Positions 9,346-51,930 of a stretch of 64,000 nucleotides of DNA are shown here, one piece after another (position 1 is the first letter of the stretch; each line of letters begins with the position of its first letter). The position numbers and the translations under genes were made by a program. The DNA lies in assembly GCA_949317995.1 (NCBI GenBank), contig OX439052.1, forward strand, positions 43,706,599-43,770,598. Reading direction: 5' to 3'. This DNA is from Acholoe squamosa (taxonomy: Eukaryota > Annelida > Polychaeta > Phyllodocida > Polynoidae). The notes beneath the pieces were generated by a model that saw only the letters and a program-made list of their open reading frames with translations, searched no databases and was not told where the DNA came from.

Positions 9346-9423
9346 TCCTGAAAGGTACTATCAAAGCACAAACTGTTCATGGAGGCTCTATCCTAAAGCA
9401 TGTTATCATGAGAGCAGATCAGA

Positions 9424-12400
9424 TGCCTGGTCACAACAGACCTGTTGCAGTTCCCACTTTCCCTGTACTACTGGTACACATACCCATGGTTATAACAGGC
9501 CTGCCACAGTTCCCACTTTCCCTGTACTACTGGTACACATACCCATGGTTATAACAGGCCTGCCACAGTTCCCACTTTCCCTATACTGCTGGTACATAGA
9601 CCCATGGTTATAACAGGCCTGCCACTGTTCCCACTTTCCCTATACTACTGGTACACATACCCATGGTTATAACAGCCCTGTCACTGTTCCCACCTACCCT
9701 ATACTACTGGTACATATACCCATGGTTATAACAGGCCTGCCACAGTTCCCACTTTCCCTATACTACTGGTACATAGACCCATGGTTATAACAGGCCTGCC
9801 ACTGTTCCCACTTTCCCTATACTACTGGTACATAGACCCATGGTTATAACAGGCCTGCCACTGTTCCCACTTTCCCTATACTGCTGGTACATAGACCTAT
9901 GGTTATAAGAGGCCTGCCACTGTTCCCACTTTCCCTATACTGCTGGTACATAGACCTATGGTTATAAGAGGCCTGCCACTGTTCCCACTTTCCCTATACT
10001 ACTGGTACATAGACCCATGGTTATAACAGGCCTGCCACTGTTCTCACTTTCCCTATACTACTGGTACATAGACCCATGGTTATAACAGGCCTGCCACTGT
10101 TCCCACTTTCCCTATAATACTGGTACATAGACCCATGGTTATACCAGGCCTGCCACTGTTCCCACTTCCCCTTTACTACTGGTACATATATACCTATGGT
10201 TATAACAGGCCTGCCACTGTTCCCAATTTCCCTTTACTACTGGTACATATATACCTATGGTTATAACAGGCCTGCCACTGTTCCCAATTTCCCTGTACTA
10301 CTGGTACACATACCCATGGTTATAACAGGCCTGTCACTGTTCCCACTTTCCCTATACTACTGGTACATATATACCTATGGTTATAACAGGCCTGCCACTG
10401 TTCCCAATTTCCCTTTACTACTGGTACATAGACCCTTGGTTATAACAGGCCTGCCACAGCTCCCACTTCCCCTTTACTACTGGTACATAGACACATGGTT
10501 ATAACAGGCCTGCCACAGTCCTCACTCTCCCTATACTACTGGTACATATACCTATGGTTATAACAGGCCTGCCACAGTTCCCACTTTCCCTATACTACTG
10601 GTACATAGACCCATGGTTATAACAGCCCTGCCACTGTTCCCACTTTCCCTATAATACTGGTACATAGACCCATGGTTATAACAGGCCTGCCACTGTTCCC
10701 ACTTTCCCTATACTGCTGGTACATAGACCTATGGTTATAAGAGGCCTGCCACAGTTCCCACTTTCCCTATACTACTGGTACATATACCCATGGTTATAAC
10801 AGGCCTGCCACTGTTCCCACTTTCCCTATACTACTGGTACATATACCCATGGTTATAACAGGCCTGCCACTGTTCCCACTTTCCCTATACTACTGGTACA
10901 TATACCCATGGTTATAACAGGCCTGCCACTGTTCCCACTTTCCCTATACTACTGGTACATATACCCATGGTTATAACAGGCCTGCCACTGTTCCCACTTT
11001 CCCTATACTACTGGTACATAGACCCATGGTTATAACAGGCCTGCCACAGTTCCCACTTTTCCTATACCACTGGTACACATACCCATGGTTATAACAGGCC
11101 TGCCACTGTTCCCACTTACCCTATACTACTGGTACATAGACCCATGGTTATAACAGGCCTGTCACTGTTCCCACATTCCCTATACTACTGGTACACATAC
11201 CCATGGTTATAACAGGCCTGTCACTGTTCCCACTTACCCTTTACTACTGGTACATATACCCATGGTTATAACAGGCCTGCCACTGGTCCCACTTTCCCTA
11301 TACTACTGGTACACATACCCATGGTTATAACAGGCCTGTCACTGTTCCCACTTACCCTTTACTACTGGTACATATACCCATGGTTATAACAGGCCTGCCA
11401 CTGGTCCCACTTTCCCTATACTACTGGTACACATACCCATGGTTATAACAGGCCTGTCACTGTTCCCACTTTCCCTATACTACTGGTATATAGACCCATG
11501 GTTATAACAGGCCTGCCACTGTTCCCACTTTCCCTATACTACTGGTACATATACCCATGGTTATAACAGGCCTGCCACAGTTCCCACTTTCCCTATACTA
11601 CTGGTACATAGACCCATGGTTATAACAGGCCTGCCACTGTTCTCACTTTCCCTATACTACTGGTACATAGACCCATGGTTATAACAGGCCTGCCACTGTT
11701 CCCACTTTCCCTATAATACTGGTACATAGACCCATGGTTATACCAGGCCTGCCACTGTTCCCACTTTCCCTATACTACTGGTACATATATACCTATGGTT
11801 ATAACAGGCCTGCCACTGTTCCCAATTTCCCTTTACTACTGGTACATATATACCTATGGTTATAACAGGCCTGCCACTGTTCCCAATTTCCCTTTACTAC
11901 TGGTACACATACCCATGGTTATAACAGGCCTGTCACTGTTCCCACTTTCCCTATACTACTGGTACATATATACCTATGGTTATAACAGGCCTGCCACTGT
12001 TCCCAATTTCCCTTTACTACTGGTACATAGACCCTTGGTTATAACAGGCCTGCCACAGCTCCCACTTCCCCTTTACTACTGGTACATAGACACATGGTTA
12101 TAACAGGCCTGCCACAGTCCTCACTCTCCCTATACTACTGGTACATATACCTATGGTTATAACAGGCCTGCCACAGTTCCCACTTTCCCTATACTACTGG
12201 TACATATACCCATGGCTATAACAGGCCTGCCACTGTTCCCACTTTCCCTATACTACTGGTACATATACCCATGGTTATAACAGGCCTGCCACTGTTCCCA
12301 CTTTCCCTATACTACTGGTACATATACCCATGGTTATAACAGGCCTGCCACTGTTCCCACTTTCCCTATACTACTGGTACATATACCCATGGTTATAACA

Positions 12401-12733
12401 GGCCTCCCACTGTTCCCACTTTCCCTATACTACTGGTACATAGACCCATGGTTATAACAGGCCTGTCACTGGTCTCACTTTCCCTATACTACTGGTACAT
12501 ATACCCATGGTTATAACAGGCCTGTCACTGTTCCCACTTTCCCTATACTGCTGGTACATAGACCTATGGTTATAAGAGGCCTGTCACTGTTCCCACTTTC
12601 CCTATACTACTGGTACACATACCCATGGTTATAACAGGCCTGTCACTATTCCCACTTTCCCTATACTACTGGTACATATACCCATGGTTATAACAGCCCT
12701 GTCACTGTTCCCACTTTCCCTAACTGCTTGTAC
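9424..12733 (+). repeat. 59-bp satellite array, about 56 units
   Basis: Head-to-tail units built around CCATGGTTATAACAGGCCTG, then CCACTGTTCCCACTTTCCC, TATACTACTGGTACATA and a GACC/TACC joint. Most units are 59 bp; a 61-bp variant carries ACATATATACCTATGG. The first unit (from 9424) is strongly diverged, as expected at an array edge. A block of roughly 570 bp starting near 10020 recurs near 11620 at an offset of about 1.6 kb, with the same private variants (CTATAATACTGG, TTATACCAGG, AGTCCTCACTCTCCC). Two 102-codon frames that differ at one residue (10196-10504, 11795-12103) are by-products of this duplication. Confidence 0.97.
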
Positions 12734-12737
12734 ATAT
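12734..12737. other. Left target-site duplication ATAT
   Basis: ATAT precedes the left inverted repeat and also follows the right one (19939-19942). Removing the element and one copy leaves GTACATATACCC, the standard satellite junction. Because ATAT is palindromic, a TA duplication with TIRs starting TGG restores the same sequence. Confidence 0.8.
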
Positions 12738-12767
12738 GGTCGATAGGCACCACTTGTCGTCATTTGG
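12738..12767 (+). repeat. Left terminal inverted repeat of the transposon
   Basis: Thirty bases identical to the reverse complement of 19909-19938, or 34 if the flanking palindromic ATAT is counted. Similarity stops abruptly at 12768. Confidence 0.93.
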
Positions 12768-12933
12768 GGTGGGAGGGGCCCCAGAATAAATATAGTAGGA
12801 CATGTTAAAGTTTTTTTGTGTGTATACTACAGGGATTGGACCATAACATCCACATATTGGGGTAGGTTAAATATGAAAACTCTACTTACACCACCCTGGT
12901 GAAGAAGGCATGTCCAAGATTGAAAAGTGACGG

Positions 12934-13346
12934 GGCGATTCGTCTCACGCCCTAACCCTGTGTATTGTGGGATGCCTTAAGACCTTGTAATATATTATCT
13001 AACTTAGTTATTGCGAATGGTTATGAAAATAGACAGCTAACCTGATAATATGGACCATAAAACATATACATTGGCTTTGATGTCCATCATTTTGCAGTGT
13101 GAGAGAAAATGTTGAAATTTTATGTGGTACGAGGAAACACCAGTACATCCTACACCCCTTCCTATCAAATACCATAACTAAATGTAAAATGGAATAAATT
13201 TATTTATTTATTTATGAATAAGTAAGGTATGACCATGAGTTCATCTTGCTATATCGTTATTAGGCCTGCCTGAAAGCATCAGACCACTAGAGCTCCTGTC
13301 CAGGGCGTGAGACGAATCGCCCCGACAGGCGATTCGTCTCACGCCC
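12934..13346. promoter_or_regulatory. Left subterminal motif group (three 19-bp sites)
   Basis: Sites at 12934-12952 (minus), 13303-13321 (plus) and 13328-13346 (minus). The last two form a perfect inverted pair with 6 bp between 19-bp arms. Position inside the left end suggests transposase binding sites, as subterminal repeats are in several cut-and-paste families; this is inference. Confidence 0.6.
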
Positions 13347-13499
13347 TAGCCCCATGACGGTACCAACACTGCAGGACAGTTAAGCCCCCAGTTAAGCCCC
13401 CAGAAATGACCAAACATGATTCTCACCATAAAGGGGCTATGAAAGGATGATAGTTGAACAACAGTTGAACATGTAATAACATTTATTAACTGCGTAACA

Positions 13500-13565
13500 T
13501 TTCATCATTATCATTACTATTACTACTATTATTATTATTACTACTATTATTATTATCATTATTAC
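13500..13565. repeat. ATT/ACT trinucleotide-rich tract
   Basis: Imperfect runs of ATT, ACT and ATC. They produce an Ile/Val-rich minus-strand frame that is not a gene. Confidence 0.85.
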
Positions 13566-13655
13566 CCCTCTCTTAACGATTAATACATGCAAGGGGTGTG
13601 TACAGGGTACAACATACAATTCTCCGATAATGGTATAACTACTACTACAGGGGGG

Positions 13656-13920
13656 GGGTTAACACCAAAGAAATGACCACAACGCACGGGTGTGAGACGA
13701 TTCGCCTGCTAATATATGAGAAAAAGTTGGACGGTTCTTTCAAGTGGTTGGGACCGTTCGGGCGTCAGACGATTCGCCTGCAGCAGCAAATGTATGGGAA
13801 AAAGGTGGACGGTTCTAACCAGAGGTTGGGACCGTTCGGGCGTGAGACGATTCTCCTGTTGTGCAATGTTTCCTGGATAGAGTTAAGACCTAAAAAAAAT
13901 CATGAAGCAAACACATAACG
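13656..13920 (+). repeat. Internal direct repeat, copy 1 (downstream of transposase gene)
   Basis: About 265 bp, nearly identical to 16836-17104. It contains three 19-bp motif variants (13688-13706, 13760-13778, 13838-13856), each followed by CTGC or CTGTTG, and two copies of a GGACGGTTCT...GGGACCGTTC block. A fourth motif at 13924-13942 lies just beyond. Copy 1 carries changes (GGGTGTGAGACG, GGCGTCAGACG) not present in copy 2 and lacks CAGCAG after the first motif. Confidence 0.92.
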
Positions 13921-13982
13921 TTCAGGCGTGAGACGATTCTCCTGTCGTAGAAGCATATATATATATACAACTTTATACAAAA

Positions 13983-14119
13983 TTTCATCCATCCTGAGCG
14001 TTCCTTCATAAGTCTCCACCAGTCCCCTGGCCGCACCACACAAATGGGGAAGCCGGACCTACCTGTCCACCAGGGAATACAAGTGGAGGCTCATGGAGAA
14101 ATGCTCAGGATGGATGAAA
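13983..14119. repeat. Inverted repeat just 3' of the transposase stop codon
   Basis: Sixteen-base arms TTTCATCCATCCTGAG (13983-13998) and its complement (14104-14119) enclose a GC-rich, partly self-complementary loop. It lies about 30 bp past the stop codon of the minus-strand gene, so it could act in 3' end formation; no AATAAA is evident next to it. Confidence 0.6.
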
Positions 14120-14147
14120 GGTAAATACACTAGTACACAAGCATCAT

Positions 14148-16820
14148 CTACTTCTTCCGCGATGACCTGCGGAGATGTACTTGGACTTCCTTGGTGGCCT
14201 TGGTTTTGGCGGAGGTCGACTTGGTTGCCCTCAACTTGGTTGCCCTCGACTTGGCTACCCTCGACCTAACTAGCTGAGGGAGGGGGACATCATCGTTGTC
14301 ACTCTCAGCAGCAAGTCGTGCCTTCACCTGAGAAAGAGGGAGGTCATCCTCCATGTTGGCCTTGAGGTTGGCAAGAGGGGTGTCTTCCTCAGAGCTGTCC
14401 TCAGAGTTGGGGAGATGGGCTAGAGGAAGCTCGTCCTCAGTGTCGTAGCCTGACTCCCCCTCAAAGTCGAACTCTTCATCCGAGTCTTCACAGACGTCTT
14501 CCTCCTCCTTTGCCACAACCTTGGTCTTGTACCATCCGGCACACCCCGGTACAAGCTGCCCAGTGCTCATGCAGCAAGCTCTGTAGCATGAGGTGCGCCG
14601 GACATAGATGGCACCTTGGAAAGCACATGCTTGGTGCATTTCCATAAGCCCAGCCACACCTGGGCTGTCCCAGTCCTCAACCTCTTTTGTTGACTCCATC
14701 ACTTCCCTGGATGTAACCTGGACAAGTTGGACCTTGGTTGCTGGTGCAACCTTCTCCACAAAGTTGTCTGCCGATTGGATGATCTGATTGGTCTTTACGA
14801 TGCGGTCAGCCAGGCGCTTCATAGCTCCTCCGACCCCGTCGCAGGGGCCTTTCCCGTGCCCGGCCTCGAGCCAATTCCATGCTGCGACGAGGCCGAAGGT
14901 ACTGGTAAACCTTAGAAGCATCTGAATCACGTGCCTATTACGGTACTGCGAGGAGGGACTGTCCGTGCAGAAGTGTATGGATGTCACATATGAAAATGAT
15001 GCCTTGATATCTTCTATAAGTTTCTGTATGAATGTGAAGGTAGTTGGAAAGGAGTGGGAGGTAACGGATGTCACACCTACGTATGTGTGAGTTATGAGGA
15101 GGCCTTCTGGTGATCGTATTTTCACCACCATAGGATGTATGGTTATCTGATCCTTCGAATAGTAGGCTGAGGTGATCTCACGCAGATAGGCACAGTTCCA
15201 GTTTTCGGAGTAGTCCATTAGAATGACAGCATGGCCCACTAACAGATTTTCCTCCAGCCTCCTCATCTCACGGTACTGCGCCTCAACTCTGCCACAATGT
15301 GCACGGAACCCTGGCAGGGCAGCAAGGAAGGTCTTTATGAACACCTCTTTTGGTTCTGACTTGGTGACTAGTTTAGTGTGATGGACTTCCTTGGTCACAA
15401 TTTTCTTGTCAACTATGCTCTCCACCTTCTTGCTCACCCGTTCCCATTGCTTGTATGAGACCATCTCCTTGTTCATCTTTTGAAGCTCCATCTCTATGGC
15501 CTCATCAGTATAGTTGTTTGTCATGGCAGTGGTGCTCTTCGGTAGGGTTGGAACAGCGTCCATCATAAGTGACATATTTGCATGTGCCTTGCACAAACAG
15601 ACGCTGCGTTTTAGGAAGTGATTGAGTTTGATGTACCATGGTCTGGCTCTCCTGAAGGTGGAATACTCTAGGGTCATGTTCTCGAATTCTGAGCAGTACT
15701 TCCTATGTAGATTAATCAACGTATCTCCAAGAGCGTAACGCTGCTGATTTTTGGTTTGGTGTCTTTTGTCTGGCAACATGTAAGAGTTATCGTCACGCTT
15801 CATGAAGTCAATAATAGATTGTTTAGTGGCCTCCCTTTTATCGATTCTGGCGGTGCTCGGCTCTTTCTCTTTCCATATATAATCACGAGAAATTTGTACG
15901 GTCTCCGCGAGCAAGCCAAGTGTTCCATGATAATTTTTGCCGGCCACAGGCTCCCGGAACAGGCCTTTCTTCACATCAACAGAACTCGCCTTCACCTGGC
16001 TGGCAGCAATTTGTAGGGTGAGGAAGGCCTTCACCCTATCACTTGTCAGAGTGATGTTCAATTCCTCCATGTTGTTCATCGTAAGTGTCAATGGGGATGC
16101 AGGGGCTGGTGCTGGTTCAACCGGTGCAGCTTCCACTTGTGGCTGTGGATCTGCTGGTTCATGACCCTCCAAACCAGGGGGTGGGATTGCCTGTGGAGCT
16201 GGTGCTGGTTCAACCGGTGCAGCTTCCACTTGTGGCTGTGGATCTGCTGGTTCATGACCCTCCAAACCAGGGGGTGGGATCACCTGTGGATCTGCTGGTT
16301 CATGATTATCAAACCCAGGAGGTGGGGTCTCTCCTCTCAGCGCATGAAAGAATCTCACTACTGGACGACGAGGTTGTTGCTTAGATGGTGGTGGGAGAGT
16401 TGCAGTCCTTGGAGTGGTAGGTTGCCGCGGTACACTTGCGGCCCTTGGAGTGGTAGGTTGCCGCGGTACACTTGCGGCCCGTGGAGTGGTAGGTTGCCGC
16501 GGTACACTTGCGGCCCGTGGAGTGGTAGGTTGCCGCGGTACACTTGCGGCCCTTGGAGTGGTAGGTTGCCGCGGTACACTTGCGGCCCGTGGAGTGGTAG
16601 GTTGCCGCGGTACACTTGCGGCCCTTGGAGTGGTTGGGTCACCTTGATGACGCATAGCCGCAGCAGCTGCTGAAGCAAGCTGCTTACGTAGCTGTGCTAC
16701 TTCCTGTTGTGCAGCATCCAGCTCCTTCTTCATTGCCCTTGCCTTACTCTGGCGAGAGAACGGCAAGGCGACAACAAGACTGTAATTGATAAAAGAAGTG
16801 AACCATAAGAACTGAGTCAA
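14148..16820 (-). CDS. DDE-like transposase candidate, 890 codons, intact
   Basis: This unbroken 2673-bp frame is the likely catalytic protein of the transposon. From the N terminus: a short coiled-coil-like stretch (KKELDAAQQEVAQLRKQL, about 30-50); six tandem TTPRAASVPRQP-type repeats; two PPPGLEGHEPADPQ repeats; a conserved-looking region with DKRHQTKNQQRYALGDTL and CLCKAH; and a probable RNase H-like core. The core shows LMDYSENWN (D536), HFCTDSPSSQYRN (D620) and WLEAGHGKGPCDGVGG (E652), giving spacing D-83-D-31-E. The tail is acidic (about 790-855) with DLPLSQ/DVPLPQ repeats and ends in a Lys/Arg-rich stretch that may direct nuclear import. Similar invertebrate proteins with SDGPSSQYRN and EAGHGKG motifs are familiar to me as uncharacterised transposon products; superfamily not certain. 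The first exon may really begin at 16748 after a good acceptor (TTCTCTCGCCAG); ATG at 16733 is an alternative start. Confidence 0.82.
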   Translation of the reverse strand: MTQFLWFTSFINYSLVVALPFSRQSKARAMKKELDAAQQEVAQLRKQLASAAAAAMRHQGDPTTPRAASVPRQPTTPRAASVPRQPTTPRAASVPRQPTTPRAASVPRQPTTPRAASVPRQPTTPRAASVPRQPTTPRTATLPPPSKQQPRRPVVRFFHALRGETPPPGFDNHEPADPQVIPPPGLEGHEPADPQPQVEAAPVEPAPAPQAIPPPGLEGHEPADPQPQVEAAPVEPAPAPASPLTLTMNNMEELNITLTSDRVKAFLTLQIAASQVKASSVDVKKGLFREPVAGKNYHGTLGLLAETVQISRDYIWKEKEPSTARIDKREATKQSIIDFMKRDDNSYMLPDKRHQTKNQQRYALGDTLINLHRKYCSEFENMTLEYSTFRRARPWYIKLNHFLKRSVCLCKAHANMSLMMDAVPTLPKSTTAMTNNYTDEAIEMELQKMNKEMVSYKQWERVSKKVESIVDKKIVTKEVHHTKLVTKSEPKEVFIKTFLAALPGFRAHCGRVEAQYREMRRLEENLLVGHAVILMDYSENWNCAYLREITSAYYSKDQITIHPMVVKIRSPEGLLITHTYVGVTSVTSHSFPTTFTFIQKLIEDIKASFSYVTSIHFCTDSPSSQYRNRHVIQMLLRFTSTFGLVAAWNWLEAGHGKGPCDGVGGAMKRLADRIVKTNQIIQSADNFVEKVAPATKVQLVQVTSREVMESTKEVEDWDSPGVAGLMEMHQACAFQGAIYVRRTSCYRACCMSTGQLVPGCAGWYKTKVVAKEEEDVCEDSDEEFDFEGESGYDTEDELPLAHLPNSEDSSEEDTPLANLKANMEDDLPLSQVKARLAAESDNDDVPLPQLVRSRVAKSRATKLRATKSTSAKTKATKEVQVHLRRSSRKK
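16400..16640. repeat. 36-bp coding minisatellite in the transposase gene
   Basis: Six near-identical 36-bp units (plus strand: GGAGTGGTAGGTTGCCGCGG...) encode the TTPRAASVPRQP repeats. The length is a multiple of three, so copy-number change keeps the frame. All the other long frames over this segment are shadows of it. Confidence 0.93.
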
Positions 16821-16835
16821 ATCTCTATGTGAGAA

Positions 16836-17104
16836 GGGTTACTACCAAAGAAATGACCAAACACACGGGCGTGAGACGATTCGCCTGCAGCAGCTAATAT
16901 ATAAGAAAAAGGTGGACGGTTCTTTCAAGTGGTTAGGACCGTTCGGGCGTGAGACGATTTGCCTGCAGCAGCAGATGTATGGGAAAAAGGTGGACGGTTC
17001 TAACCAGAGGTTGGGACCGTTCGGGCGTGAGACGATTCTCCTGTTGTGCAATGTTTCCTGGATAGAGTTAAGACCTAAAAAAATCATGAAGCAAACACAT
17101 AACG
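16836..17104 (+). repeat. Internal direct repeat, copy 2 (upstream of transposase gene)
   Basis: Matches 13656-13920 almost base for base. It carries 19-bp motifs at 16867-16885, 16945-16963 and 17023-17041. Copies 1 and 2 have the same orientation and bracket the transposase gene, so recombination between them would delete that gene. Copy 2 lies where the promoter or an upstream intron of the gene is expected. Confidence 0.92.
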
Positions 17105-17224
17105 CTATGGTTCAACGAGAAATACCTTTTATTAAAGGTGAGAGAAATGACTTTAATAGATCTAATATAGTACTTTTATAGCATTTACAGCATTTATATA
17201 AGTTAGGCCATTCCTTCTTCTTGG

Positions 17225-17252
17225 GTAGAAAAATATATATATATATATATAT
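17225..17252. repeat. (AT)n microsatellite
   Basis: About 11 TA dinucleotides inside the transposon, between its two genes. Confidence 0.9.
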
Positions 17253-17374
17253 AGACTTTTAAATATCTGTGTACATGTTACATCTTACATCTCTTAAATA
17301 GAAGCACCTTGCTGTCTGTACATACATGTATATATATAAGAACTTTCTTAGATTATGTTAAATGCAGTTAAATA

Positions 17375-18601
17375 TTAATTTTTCTTCCTCAGGTTTAGAG
17401 AATGGGCAAATTTCGTCCTCGGACTTTTAGTGGGAGAAAGTGGCTTCTTCTTCTTCTTCTTCCCTTCTTCCCAGGTCCTGTCCACAATATTCTCCATGGT
17501 AGCAATGGGGTGGGGGTAGGGCAGGGGCTTAACAGGGGGAGTTGATTTTGATCTTGTGAAATGTTTGCTGGAAGAAAAGGAAAAATTCTTTTTAACAGAA
17601 AAAAAACAACATAGACACACACAAAAAAAAAATTGAATGAAATGACAAGGTGCTTCATGTATTACAAATAAAAGATGGGGGGAAATAAATTTTATGTTTT
17701 ACTCACCGAGCAGAGCCAGGATCTGGCTTACGCCGCTTCTCGGGAAGGGGTAGGGCAGGCTCTGCCTCCACTCCCTGCACTCTACGGGACGACTTCCCTC
17801 TACCTTTCCCTTTGCCTTTTGTTGGAGTTGGAGTTTGGTGGCTAGGTCCAGCTACGGGCTCTTCGGGTTGTGGTGCTGGCAGAGGTGCTGCCTCAGGTGC
17901 TGGCAGAGGTGCTGCCTCAGGTGCTGGCAGAGGTGCTGCCTCAGGTGCTGGCAGAGGTGCTGCCTCAGGTGCTGCCTCAGCTTCAGCCTCAGGTGCTGCC
18001 TCGGCTTCGGCCTCAGGTGCTGCCTCGGCTTCGGCCTCACGTGCAGCATCTTCATTTAAAATATTATAAAAAGTGACAAGACTTAAATTATTATCATTAT
18101 TATAATTATCATTTGATTATCATAATTATCATTGTTATTGTTATTTATCATTGTTATTGTTATTTATCATTATTATTATCATTGTTGTTGTTGTTATTAT
18201 TATTATCATGATCATTATTATTATTGGAACAGGACTGATAGTACAGGTACAAACCTTTGGCCCTTTTCAGTTTCGCTTTGTACCTTCTCTTTGATTCGCG
18301 GCGACGTTCCTGGAGCTCTGGGTCCAGCTCATCAATGCCCTTCCTCTTTGGTTTGTATTTCTGAAAGAATAAGAATAAGATAATTTAAGAATCATAATAA
18401 AATAATAATTCTTAGTGATAACTTAGTGTCAATATACTTCCAATATACTTCCTTAAGTTACATAACAGGTAAAGTTACCTCATCTGACAACCTCTTGGCC
18501 ATCTTCTTCTCCTCTGTTTGTCTTTTCTTGTCATAAGACCTCTTCGACCGTTTACGAGCACTCTCCAAGGCCGCTGGGGATTTTGGGTCTTTGTAAGGCA
18601 T
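17375..18601 (-). CDS. Basic repeat protein, second transposon gene (4 spliced coding exons)
   Basis: Spliced coding exons on the minus strand are 18479-18601, 18255-18360, 17707-18049 and 17375-17567, ending in TAA. Introns are GT-AG (donors GTAACT, GTTTGT, GTGAGT; acceptors TTTCAG, ATGAAG, TTCCAG) and the phases 0, 1 and 2 all join, giving 765 bp or 254 residues. Exons 1-2 encode a strongly basic region (ESARKRSKRSYDKKRQ; ELQERRRESKRRYKAKLKRA). Exon 3 encodes Ala/Glu/Pro repeats (EAEAEAAPEA, then EAAPLPAP four times) and a KGKGKGRGKSSRR stretch. Exon 4 is Lys-rich with SPTKSPRTKF. No known domain is recognised; a nuclear DNA-binding accessory role is inferred from charge and context. The weakest point is the exon 3 acceptor. 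Exons 1-2 could alternatively splice to the transposase: the phase-0 donor at 18479 would fit the acceptor at 16748. Confidence 0.7.
17870..18045. repeat. 24-bp coding minisatellites in the second gene
   Basis: Four GCAGCACCTCTGCCAGCACC-type units followed (in plus-strand order) by three GAGGCCGAAGCC-type units, all multiples of three. Frames read in other registers on both strands here (Cys/Arg or Gln/His repeats) are shadows. Confidence 0.9.
18060..18230. repeat. ATT/ATC-rich tract within an intron
   Basis: Imperfect TTATTA and TCATTA runs lie in the intron between exons 2 and 3 of the second transposon gene. Confidence 0.85.
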
Positions 18602-18633
18602 CTGCAAGAATAGATTATAAAAAAACATACATG

Positions 18634-19555
18634 GGCGAATCGTCTCACTCCCGACACCTACAGACTATGCCTAACATGGGATAAGTGTACCAAATGGACA
18701 AGACAGGGTGTGTGTTAGTATTCTTTATGATATGGTAATGCCAGGCCAGGTCAGGCCAGAAAATATGCAGTACAAACAAACTTCATTGAGACAGGCGAAT
18801 CGTCTCACGCCCGACACTCACATACCTCTGCCTTCATTTTACATAAGACTAACGGCAGAAAGTGAACCAGATCGGCCGAGCGTAATGTTTACATGTTGCT
18901 GAGGTGATTTACAGCCCTAATTACCACACTTAGCTCGATCAATACAGTCTATAGCATGTTTTCTACATTATTTAATCAAATTTCTTGAAAATTAATGGTT
19001 TAAAGCATAATTTTTCATCAATTTCTTACCTTGAAAACGTTTAGTCGACCGGCGACAAACTTCCAAAGCGCCTGCGTCCGTAACGTTCCTGTCTTTTACA
19101 CCAGATGGCGGGTCATAGGTTTAGTTCTAGCGAAAACCGCCAGGGGGTGAGACGAATCGCTGGGCGTGAGACGATTCGCTCCGGGTCGACCTCTGCCTTT
19201 GTATAGTGATATCTATTGCTATGGAGCTAGCAGGAAAATGCCCTTGACATGTCTTATACCTTTGATATGTAGGTGCTTTGTGATATGAATAAGGATGGTT
19301 AAATATAAAAACCCTAAAAAATTTGGATATATATATAGAAATTGAGGGCGTGAGACGATTCGCCCTCTGCTTCAGCCCCAGACTACCCCACCGTACATCA
19401 ATCATTCTGTTCTGCTCTTTGCAGGACCCAGACTCTAATTTTCTTTTTCTCATATACAAGTATAAGTTCGCAGAGAAAATGGATGGTATAGATAGACCAT
19501 GCACTGTGTGTATATTATAGCTAGACCCCCATCTTTGGGCGTGAGACGAATCGCC
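18634..19555. promoter_or_regulatory. Right motif group (six 19-bp sites)
   Basis: Sites at 18634-18652 and 18794-18812 (minus orientation) and 19143-19161, 19162-19180, 19346-19364 and 19537-19555 (plus). The pair at 19143-19180 is directly abutting. The group covers the presumed 5' region of the second gene and the right subterminal region, so the sites could serve transposition, autoregulation, or both. Confidence 0.6.
19030..19130 (-). other. Probable 5' non-coding exon of the second transposon gene
   Basis: A strong donor reads TTTTCAAG/GTAAGAAAT on the minus strand (exon end 19030). A good acceptor (TTCTTGCAG) lies immediately before the ATG at 18601. Joining them gives an open frame upstream of the ATG without another ATG, so the start stays at 18601. 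The 5' limit is not visible. Confidence 0.5.
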
Positions 19556-19908
19556 TCGAAAATTAACCAACCACATTTCTTATTACAGAAAATAAATAAC
19601 TAAGTCTATACATACCTAAAAGTTCTTCAAAATTTCTTAGACTAATTATACATTTGCCTAGAAATATCTATGGGCCCTCCTACCAGTAATTTTTTTTTTA
19701 TTTATCTCTAAATGTGGATTTTTCGATTTTTTGCCTAAAAAACGAGTTTTTTTGGGTAGTTCTAGGCCCCTCACTCCCAAAATATCCTTCAGATGTATGG
19801 AAAACTAGGGTTCCCCATGTAGCTCTAACCCTGGGCTATCAGAATGAATGATAATGACAGGTGTATATATTATTTTCACTGATTTATTAACCACAGAAGG
19901 CAGAATGA

Positions 19909-19938
19909 CCAAATGACGACAAGTGGTGCCTATCGACC
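19909..19938 (-). repeat. Right terminal inverted repeat of the transposon
   Basis: Perfect complement of the left TIR, followed by ATAT (19939-19942). Confidence 0.93.
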
Positions 19939-19978
19939 ATATACCCATAGTAATAATTGGTCTGCCACAGTTCCAAAA
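19939..19978 (+). repeat. Satellite remnant right of the transposon
   Basis: ATACCCATAGTAATAATTGG followed by TCTGCCACAGTTCC aligns with the satellite unit with several changes, then similarity ends. This is the diverged far edge of the array, displaced by 7.2 kb by the insertion. Confidence 0.82.
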
Positions 19979-30203: not shown

Positions 30204-30300
30204 TCTCCACATTCCTCTGTGAAATTGTGTAATGTAGTTCTTGCCATGAATATGACTTTAGCTGTTGAAATGGGATTAAACATATATATTACTCACTCAC
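30204..30300 (+). repeat. Dispersed repeat E, copy 1
   Basis: Shares CTGTGAAATTGTGTAATG, GCCATGAATATGAC and TTAGCTGTTGAAATGG with 51836-51930. Both copies end in TTACTCACTCAC. Only two copies were found, so the family limits are unknown. Confidence 0.7.
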
Positions 30301-39960: not shown

Positions 39961-40412
39961 GCTATTGATAAAGCCAATAGTGCATTCAAGCACAGTGACC
40001 ATTGATAAAGCCAAATAGTGCATTCATGCATAATGACCATCGATAAAGCCAAATAGTGCATTCATGAATAATGACCATTGATAAAGCCAAATAGTGCATT
40101 CATGCATAATGACCATCGATAAAGCCAAATAGTGCATTCATGCAAAATGACCATTGATAAAGCCAAATAGTGCATTCATGCATAATGACCATTGATACAG
40201 CCAAATAGTGCATTTATGCAGAGTGACCAATGATAAAGTCAATAGTGCATTCATGCATAGTGACCATTGATAAAGCCAATAGTGCATTTATGCATAATGA
40301 CCATTGATAAAGCCAATGATGCATTTATGCATAATGACCATTGATAAAGCCAATGATGCATTTATGCATAATGACCATTGATAAAGCCAATGATGCATTT
40401 ATGCATAGTGAC
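39961..40412 (+). repeat. 38-bp minisatellite, 12 units
   Basis: Unit ACCATTGATAAAGCCAAATA followed by GTGCATTCATGCATAATG; later units lose one A and change ATTC to ATTT. The second half of the unit matches the TGCATTCATGCAT.ATGACCA part of family A, and the array runs directly into a family A copy. Confidence 0.93.
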
Positions 40413-40665
40413 CAATGGTTGGTATGATGCCTGAATGCAGCCCTGGTGAATAACTTACCCGGGGTACTACATTCACACATCATGCCGACCCGATGGGGTT
40501 TATTCACTACCATATGGTTATTGGCTAGCTCACAGACTCACCAGCACTTCATTGGTGCATCATGACAACCATGCAGCATGATGCACCCCACTTCATTGGT
40601 GCATCATGCCCACCAAGCAGCATGATGCACTCTTTCTGCCTTAAAGTACCAGCCCCTGAAGAGTT
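40405..40665. mobile_element. Family A copy joined to the minisatellite
   Basis: GCCTGAATGCAGCCCTGGTGA with its partner, then CACCAGCACTTCATTGGTGC twice with AGCATGATGCAC between. Right tip CAGCCCCTGAAGAGTTAA. Confidence 0.68.
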
Positions 40666-41045: not shown

Positions 41046-42364
41046 TACATTAAAGATGTCTGCAGTCTTTACAGGTCTAACCTGAAAGAATAATTATCGG
41101 AGACATAGTAAGAGGAAGAGGCAATGGCAAAGTGTGTTTATGTTTATGTATTCAGCAGCAATTTGGGGAAATTACCCCGGAATTCATGCACAGAGGACCA
41201 AATTGGTGAAATCAGATCGCCGCGAAAAATAAAAATAGCCTAGAAGCACACGCAATGATCCGGCATCACATGACCTGGGTCCTCAGGCGAGAGGGGAGAG
41301 ACGCTACAAAGTGACGTCACATCCTGCCACAAGACCCCTTAGACAATCAATAAGAAGCCTCTGTTGTTGCGAGCAGCTATTATCCAGTCACTAAGGGGCC
41401 TGTGACAGAGCCAGCTTGTTATTGGGTGACTAAGGGGCCCTAACTAATTGGCTGGTTCCCGTGGGATGAGCTACTAGTTGTCTACGGCTGATGGGGACAA
41501 GTGAAAGCTGCCATCTTGAGAGAAATGCAGCCATACTTGAATGTCGTCTACTATGAGACGCTGAAGATGAATGCTATGTAGATGCTGCAGTATCTAATTA
41601 AGTTGTATTTTGATTTATCTTGCCTTGAAGAGTACTTAATGTCATATCTGGTAATAGAATCCTAAAGATAATTGTGAAATACCGCTCTGGCATAGAGATG
41701 AAAATTATCAAGGATATAGGACACTGCACTAGAGTTAATATTACCATTCTTTGTGGCTTTCACTCAGGCCAAATATAAGAAAAAGCTAGTTTTCATGTTA
41801 CCCAGTCCTACCTAGCAAGCCATGGCTGACCCTAGGAATATCTATTACATTGGGGAAAAATGATGTTTGGCTGTTGTTGGCTTTATCCAGAGACAATGTA
41901 GGTAGGCCTATAGACCAAAACAGAGTAGAATTTCATCAGTTTTACAAAGTGATCCTTAAGATCTAGGGTGTCCAAGCTTCCCTTTAAATCAAATTTAGAA
42001 GATGATTTATGAATTTCCAATCTAGTTCCCCAAACAGCTGTACACATTTTGGCAGTGAGTCTATCATTTTGAAGTTAGACCTCTGCTCAAACTACTTTCA
42101 AGCTAAAACAAACACACTATCTACCAAAGTTCAAGTTCAATGAATCTTTATTGCAAGCATTCGACAAACATGTATTTTAGTTACAACGATGGGCCAAAGA
42201 CACCCTCAGGGAGAAAAACAAGCAGGCTTTTGATAAAAATAATAAAGTTGACAATGCATACCTGTAGATTTCTTGGCTTATTTTGTTACATCATACAAAG
42301 GAGTAACACTTATGTTGACAACTCACACACATGTATGATTACATTATCGTTTTTATCATTTCAG
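41046..42364. other. Probable intron upstream of the Ig exon
   Basis: No other exon is seen. Motifs: TGACGTCA at 41312-41319 and GCTGCCATCTTG at 41508-41517 (YY1-like). The segment just before the exon ends in a short acceptor tract (TTTTTATCATTTCAG). Confidence 0.45.
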
Positions 42365-42634
42365 CGCCACCCGTTTTGGGAGAAGTGTCGCCGAGCTTCC
42401 TCATCCAGAAGGAGGGTGACACGGTCGACATGTACTGTGATGCAAGCGCCACGCCCGAGCCCGCTCTGACCTGGTATAAGGACGGAAAGGTGCTCGAAGC
42501 CTCCTCCAGAGTCAAAATCAACAACAACCGCATCCAGGTGTGCAACCTGGAGAGGGAAGATGGCGGCGTCTACACCTGTACGTTTAAAAATGTCGTTGGA
42601 CAGGTCTCTCACATCATCAAACTCGTCATAGAAG
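42365..42634 (+). CDS. Single I-set immunoglobulin-domain exon (internal, 90 codons)
   Basis: This internal exon encodes one complete I-set Ig domain of a larger protein, probably a cell-adhesion, matrix or receptor protein. The acceptor TTTTATCATTTCAG precedes it and the donor GAAG/GTGAGTG follows. Both introns are phase 1, the symmetric pattern typical of shuffled Ig domains, and 270 bp is exactly 90 codons. Visible landmarks are PPVLGEV at the start, VDMYCDA (first Cys), LTWYKDG (core Trp), RIQVCNL, and EDGGVYTCTFKN (second Cys with the D.G.Y.C motif). The Cys-Cys span is normal. An extra Cys in the strand before the E-D turn is unusual. No other exon of the gene is found in the window, so introns on both sides must be long. 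The parent (hemicentin-, titin-, MDGA- or Robo-like) cannot be told from one domain. Confidence 0.93.
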
Positions 42635-43505
42635 GTGAGTGATAATAGGTTTTTTTCTGGTAGGGTCAGGGGCTGTACTCATACTACTACTACCATAGGA
42701 ACAATAACTCAGCAACTTTTGTATTGGCTAAAACTGAGGATGCTGTGTTGGTTGTTTCTTGGATTTTATATATGTATTACCACCCAGTTGGTTTTATTGT
42801 TTTTTCAGTTTTATATATGTGCTTTTATAAATGTCGCCCATCCCCCTTTTCACGGGTGGTTGAGTGTATCCACAAACAAACAAGGCAGTTGTATACATTT
42901 TGGTGTCTAAATGTTTTGGTGAGAAAAAACACATGCATCCAGACAAAATAAAGCCTAGCCAAAAGACCTCTTCTTTATGTTCATTTAACAAAATAAGGTG
43001 GAGTGATTTTAAAAAGTCATTACAAGATAAAAGTTAAGTAAAGCTCAGAACATGTAAGTAAAGTTCAGAAAAACCACCAAAACTACAACTGCTCTTGTTA
43101 TCATGGCGTCAGCGACGCAACAGCATCATTGCTTATTGTCAGAACGTCCCAATTGTTTATATTGACTTCCAGGTTTCTTCATTGATCCTTTGAGGTCTAT
43201 TCAGGACGTTATACAGTTTACACTCACCATTTTGGCCTTTTAACACAAGGATATGATGCACATAACTTTTTTGAGATGCTTATTAAAAATATTTAGGTAG
43301 AAGTGTAATGACAATATCAGATTTATTCATATAGGCCTAGGGAAGTAGAGCCCTCTGATATGAGGCATCCAGCCTGAGTCTTAGTGGCTAATGTATGTCA
43401 AATCCTATCACTCAGAACCTACAATCTGTTAGGAGAGTGAAATCTCTTCAGGGGACCTAACAAACTCAGAGATTCACTTTTTTCATGAAATGAATTAGGG
43501 CCTTA
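42635..43505. other. Probable intron downstream of the Ig exon
   Basis: Frames at 42635-42951 run from the donor into T-rich intron and are not coding. AAGTAAAG(C/T)TCAGAA is repeated twice at 43034-43071. Confidence 0.5.
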
Positions 43506-49047: not shown

Positions 49048-49300
49048 TTATCCCTTTAAGGTCTGCGGATGCATTAACGCATCATGCCCATTGGTCTTCA
49101 TGATGCATGAATGCAGCCCTGGTGAATAACTCGCCAGGGCTACATTCATGCATCATGTCAACCTTATTGGGCTGATATGTCCATGAAGGGTTGCCATGAT
49201 GCTCCGATGAAGTGCTGGGGAGCAGACTCACCAGCACTTCATTGGTGCATCATGACGATCATGATACACTCCTGCATCTACAGCCCTTAAAGAGTTGATA
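49048..49300. mobile_element. Family A MITE, nearly complete, mixed modules
   Basis: CCCTTTAAGGTCTGCGGATG to CTACAGCCCTTAAAGAG. Module 1 is GCATGAATGCAGCCCTGGTGA; module 2 is CTCCGATGAAGTGCTGGGGA. Confidence 0.8.
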
Positions 49301-51835: not shown

Positions 51836-51930
51836 GACACATTCCTGTGAAATTGTGTAATGTAGTTCCTGCCATGAATATGACATTAGCTGTCGAAATG
51901 GCGTTCACCATCTGTTACTCACTCACCCCT
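51836..51930 (+). repeat. Dispersed repeat E, copy 2
   Basis: CCTGTGAAATTGTGTAATG to TTACTCACTCACCCC; about 85 percent like 30204-30300 by eye. Here the terminal ACTC has not expanded. Confidence 0.7.

Follow-up and report, generated by a model that had tools for sequence, protein, structure and literature searches.

A complete, probably autonomous DNA transposon of likely Sola2 affinity in the polychaete Acholoe squamosa

The stretch of DNA considered here (the window) comprises 64,000 nucleotides of the annelid Acholoe squamosa (contig OX439052.1, positions 43,706,599 to 43,770,598, forward strand). Between positions 12738 and 19938 it carries a 7,201-bp element which I interpret as a complete and probably autonomous cut-and-paste DNA transposon, most likely belonging to the Sola2 group; most probably the superfamily is a known one and the family new. 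A previous annotation made from the letters alone (the sequence-only reading) had already proposed an intact DNA transposon with identical ends and a DDE-like gene at this place; this proposal finds support in what follows, and the element is probably autonomous.

The inverted terminal arms of the element are identical over exactly 30 bp, as originally claimed, the first mismatch being found at position 31; the raw inverted repeat measures 34 bp owing to a palindromic ATAT at either side of the element. A 15-bp end motif, searched with up to 3 mismatches, occurs at only two places in the window, both perfect and both corresponding to the element ends (shuffled sequences average 0.97 matches at this threshold, and the full 30-bp arms agree as well). 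A 59-bp satellite array stops exactly at the left end of the transposon, and what follows the right end looks like a diverged unit of the satellite. Upon joining the two flanks and aligning them with the satellite consensus, the best score (169) was obtained with 4 bp removed, the scores with 0, 2 and 6 bp removed being 158, 162 and 158, respectively; in addition, the interval 9401-12740 contains 14 exact matches to GTACATATACCC, which has a single ATAT at the insertion place, and none to the 2-bp-shorter form GTACATACCC. The target-site duplication (TSD) is therefore the 4-bp ATAT, and the insertion is a product of transposition. The target site is thus undamaged, in agreement with the sequence-only reading.

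All coding capacity considered here lies on the minus strand. The largest frame (14148-16838; its translation is referred to as P0001) spans 896 codons from stop to stop and 861 amino acids from its first ATG, so that the 890 codons attributed to it earlier are approximate, the frame being indeed unbroken; in 300 first-order Markov sequences the longest frame reached 241 codons, with a mean of 128. The DDD/E-like nature of the protein is inferred from its motifs: the acidic stretches MDYSEN, CTDSPSSQYRN and HGKGPCDG provide D542, D626 and D667 as candidate catalytic residues (P0001 numbering), separated by 83 and 40 residues, with E658 as an alternative third member. C-terminal of this putative triad there is a Cys/His cluster (735-783), followed by acidic and basic tails. 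The HGK..CDG stretch is reminiscent of transposase-like animal proteins.

Relatives were sought in family libraries, in PDB, and in contig and phage collections; the latter are bacterial, archaeal and viral and hold almost no eukaryotic DNA, so that their negatives say little on animals. With this scope, a search of Pfam, NCBIfam, PHROGs, PDB, IMG/VR, GTDB and phage records brought up no protein relative, and P0001 in particular had no meaningful match in the Pfam, NCBIfam and PHROGs family libraries or among PDB sequences. In viral contigs, P0001 gave 4 pattern stretches and the core region of the protein gave 8, none of them confirmed; one of two HGK..CDG patterns gave no match and the other 12 loci, the best with a tblastn E of 0.19, as expected by chance; neither the terminal inverted repeat (TIR) nor the internal 18-bp motif described below had any match there. 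In GTDB contigs, the core region gave 65 pattern stretches, none confirmed, and a pattern search gave no match. The following hits were discarded: the NCBIfam IgA Fc-binding protein BAC (E 9.4e-07), reaching 27 bits where the cut-off is 1700 and sitting in the Pro-rich repeats 67-146; PDB inulosucrase (E 0.049), matched through repeats; a single phage match (E 0.9); and the too weak PHROG 928 (E 0.2), Pfam DUF6026 (E 0.86, the sole Pfam listing for P0001), Pfam Trypan_PARP (E 0.084, for the 254-amino-acid protein discussed below) and PDB USPL1 (E 0.16, residues 600-671).

The characters used here to recognise Sola elements are drawn from later papers (PMC3627910, PMC10741241) rather than from the original description. 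In these papers, Sola transposons are described as having a DDD transposase, 4-bp TSDs, TIRs of 11-1124 bp and a length of mostly 2-9 kb (PMC10741241), and the Sola2 elements of two social amoebae (families DFa and PPa) as coding for an 888-amino-acid transposase, with TIRs of 12-21 bp and AT-rich 4-bp TSDs of the form AWWT, ATAT being listed among them (PMC3627910). Animal Sola2 elements are likewise on record, with 14 curated ones from bivalves (PMC10294476, in part) and a report from an ostracod (PMC7998251, in part). The present element has ATAT on both sides, short TIRs of 30 bp, a total of 7,201 bp and a putative transposase of about 890 residues; since the length and sequence of the TSD and the lengths of TIR, element and protein agree with the values published for Sola2 and Sola, its anatomy fits Sola2. 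The earlier statement that no named family could be matched with confidence is accordingly doubtful; I infer the membership from the anatomy. Differences exist too, for the perfect 30-bp TIR contrasts with the 12-21 bp of the amoebozoan elements and there is no Fanzor gene (PMC3627910, in part), while the basic spliced N-terminal gene or isoform and the 16 internal 18-bp repeats (see below) have no counterpart in those parts of the Sola2 descriptions that were at hand. Two points weigh against the assignment. First, no sequence relative emerged from any search, and it is thus the anatomy that carries it. Second, residues 497-723 of P0001, modelled with AlphaFold2 from the single sequence, gave a poor result (mean predicted local distance difference test, pLDDT, 35.8; predicted template-modelling score, pTM, 0.24) with no strand at D542, hence it does not demonstrate an RNase H fold; in favour of the assignment, D626 follows directly on a predicted strand in this model.

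The lack of profile matches is also compatible with a DDD/E transposon of another superfamily with 4-bp TSDs, be it Sola1, an unusual Kolobok-like lineage or an undescribed superfamily, an alternative that I hold to be less likely. Some Kolobok families, as far as the consulted text of PMC9587614 goes, code for two proteins, and the TSDs of KolobokP elements are of 3-5 bp instead of strictly TTAA, so that the TSD alone is not decisive. On the other hand, ATAT fits exactly the AWWT of published Sola2 (PMC3627910, in part), and the C/DxxH motif expected between the second D and the last catalytic residue in Kolobok, hAT, P, MuDR and Dada (PMC9587614, in part) is absent from P0001 after position 416 and thus between D626 and D667; unlike Kolobok, the element also has ATAT in place of TTAA and lacks long terminal direct repeats (same source). 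Among further candidates, piggyBac and typical Kolobok target TTAA, not ATAT; the 2-bp TA duplication of Tc1/mariner accounts for the join less well than 4 bp, no 2-bp-shorter satellite unit being present; and the Gypsy-like integrase domain of Ginger was not recovered in the Pfam scan of P0001.

Besides the large frame, four exons with GT donors and AG acceptors encode a protein of 254 amino acids with no internal stop, in keeping with the second, spliced gene reported earlier. A non-coding first exon probably precedes them, ending at the strong donor AAG|GTAAGA (19030/19031). The two apparent genes may be one gene spliced two ways: the large frame stays open 5' of its first ATG through plausible acceptors, two of which (16779 and 16748) have a good pyrimidine tract; joining the donor at 17707 to 16779 yields an unbroken frame of 1,067 amino acids with the first three coding exons, and exon 1 alone joined to 16748 is also open (907 amino acids). 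I favour the former version, since the short form's exons are retained in it. Both pyrimidine tracts, and an AATAAA after each stop (at 17128, on the minus strand, and at 13482), speak for a join.

Several observations speak against the single gene. Only 2 of the 8 joins tested were open, that is, 2 of 6 informative ones, as two contained the last short exon and could not be open owing to its stop; this is the chance level, and the one-gene join is for this reason put forward as a hypothesis only. AATAAA signals occur at other places in the element as well, the acceptor of coding exon 3 ranks below the top 16 of 177 AG sites, and seven donors left unused equal in score the three internal ones that are used. 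Two independent genes within the same transposon, namely one for an 861-amino-acid transposase starting from the ATG of the large exon and an independent accessory one whose four exons code for a basic protein rich in repeats, in a logic comparable to that of other two-gene elements, have a nearly even chance of being the correct description. The large frame does have an ATG near its start, a stop and an AATAAA close the four-exon gene ahead of the large exon, and two proteins are coded by some Kolobok families (PMC9587614, in part); yet a promoter belonging to the large exon itself did not come to light, though without a systematic search, and the frame stays open upstream of the ATG through plausible acceptors. 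The two genes of the sequence-only reading are in some doubt given the possible 1,067-amino-acid join.

An 18-bp motif, GGCGTGAGACGATTCGCC, is present in 16 copies in the window when as many as 3 mismatches are allowed (3 perfect, 12 with a single mismatch and one with three), the number expected from 100 shuffles being 0.00. All 16 lie inside the element and none in the five exons (together 3,397 of its 7,201 bp); those at 19144 and 19163 lie close upstream of the probable first exon. The basic protein that the element encodes probably binds to these repeats, which most likely serve transposition, autoregulation or both. Against this, 6 of the 16 copies sit in one duplicated segment, whose two copies share 253 identities with 10 mismatches and 8 gaps, and the avoidance of exons could reflect coding constraint.

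With regard to mechanism, the transposase encoded by the large exon would bind the ends, and perhaps the internal sites too, cut at the 30-bp TIRs, excise the element and insert it into 4-bp targets rich in AT, in this case ATAT. The upstream exons would encode a basic N-terminal part, probably DNA-binding, with the 18-bp repeats as its likely sites; together with the large exon they may yield a full transposase of up to 1,067 amino acids, while termination at 17375 would give the 254-amino-acid short form devoid of the catalytic part, possibly a cofactor or a repressor. In P element and En/Spm-type regulation, splice variants share the DNA-binding end and binding motifs are repeated internally; the resemblance is one of analogy only, with no likeness of sequence or TSD. 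Taken to its full extent, this scheme describes an undescribed DDD lineage in which one gene with alternative terminal exons produces a transposase of about 1,067 amino acids and a catalysis-free DNA-binding protein of 254. Both proteins would read the 16 dispersed internal 18-bp sites, of which two adjoin the start of the gene itself, as an intrinsic brake on transposition; I regard this scheme as rather unlikely as a whole.

The intactness of this copy suggests recent movement. That the insertion is old and dead, or that a domesticated gene only gives the look of an intact element, is very improbable: only one copy is visible and its intactness alone speaks for activity, but the TIRs are identical at 30 of 30 positions, the TSD is intact and the frames are unbroken. 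A domesticated transposon gene is not expected to retain TIRs and TSD, as this element does. Being complete, with undamaged ends, target site and frames, this probable Sola-type element is a useful candidate for reconstituting the transposition of a superfamily for which no experimental study was found in the available portions of the literature searched. If the isoforms and the internal sites are as proposed, it would moreover offer a self-regulating transposon open to testing. The features of the element and its flanks are listed in Table 1.

Table 1. Coordinates of the transposon, its coding exons, its repeats and the adjoining satellite in the window
Feature	Position	Strand	Remarks
Satellite array	9450..12737		59-bp unit, 55.5 copies; right edge is the insertion point of the element
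Left TSD	12734..12737		ATAT
Left TIR	12738..12767	+	30 bp, starts GGTCGATAGG
18-bp motif, seven copies	12934..13942		Left part of element: 12934-, 13304+, 13328-, 13689+, 13761+, 13839+, 13925+
Duplicated segment, copy 1	13656..13920	+	Internal
Large coding exon	14148..16779	-	Putative transposase; 877 codon positions from acceptor 16779 to stop
Duplicated segment, copy 2	16836..17104	+	Internal
18-bp motif, three copies	16868..17041	+	78-bp spacing; intron before large exon
Terminal exon of short form	17375..17567	-	254-amino-acid form; contains stop
Coding exon 3	17707..18049	-	Ala/Pro/Glu 12-bp repeats, basic end; weak acceptor; donor can join 17567 or 16779 in frame
Coding exon 2	18255..18360	-	Second basic segment
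Coding exon 1	18479..18601	-	Starts with ATG; basic Lys/Arg-rich segment
18-bp motif, two copies	18634..18811	-	At 18634 and 18794; first intron
18-bp motif, four copies	19144..19555	+	At 19144, 19163, 19347 and 19538
Right TIR	19909..19938	-	Perfect match to left TIR
Right TSD	19939..19942		ATAT

Elsewhere in the window, a dispersed repeat whose cores are palindromic (GCATCATG..., CCAGCACTTCATTGGTGCATCATG), resembling a miniature inverted-repeat transposable element, is scattered over 21793-64000; one of its families counts 21 copies of 66 nt at a minimum of 60% identity in 20000-64000, and the copy at 49071-49177 forms a long DNA hairpin (-35 kcal/mol versus -14.0 for shuffles, z -8.2). An exon for an I-set-like immunoglobulin domain of the titin/Roundabout-like type lies at 42325-42639, its best PDB match being titin (E 3.1e-37), which points to an animal as the host, and a tandem array of 12 copies of a 38-bp unit occupies 39964-40414. 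Finally, a 67-bp direct repeat of 90% identity links 30217-30283 to 51845-51911 over a distance of 21.6 kb; the pair may be a gene or element fragment present twice.

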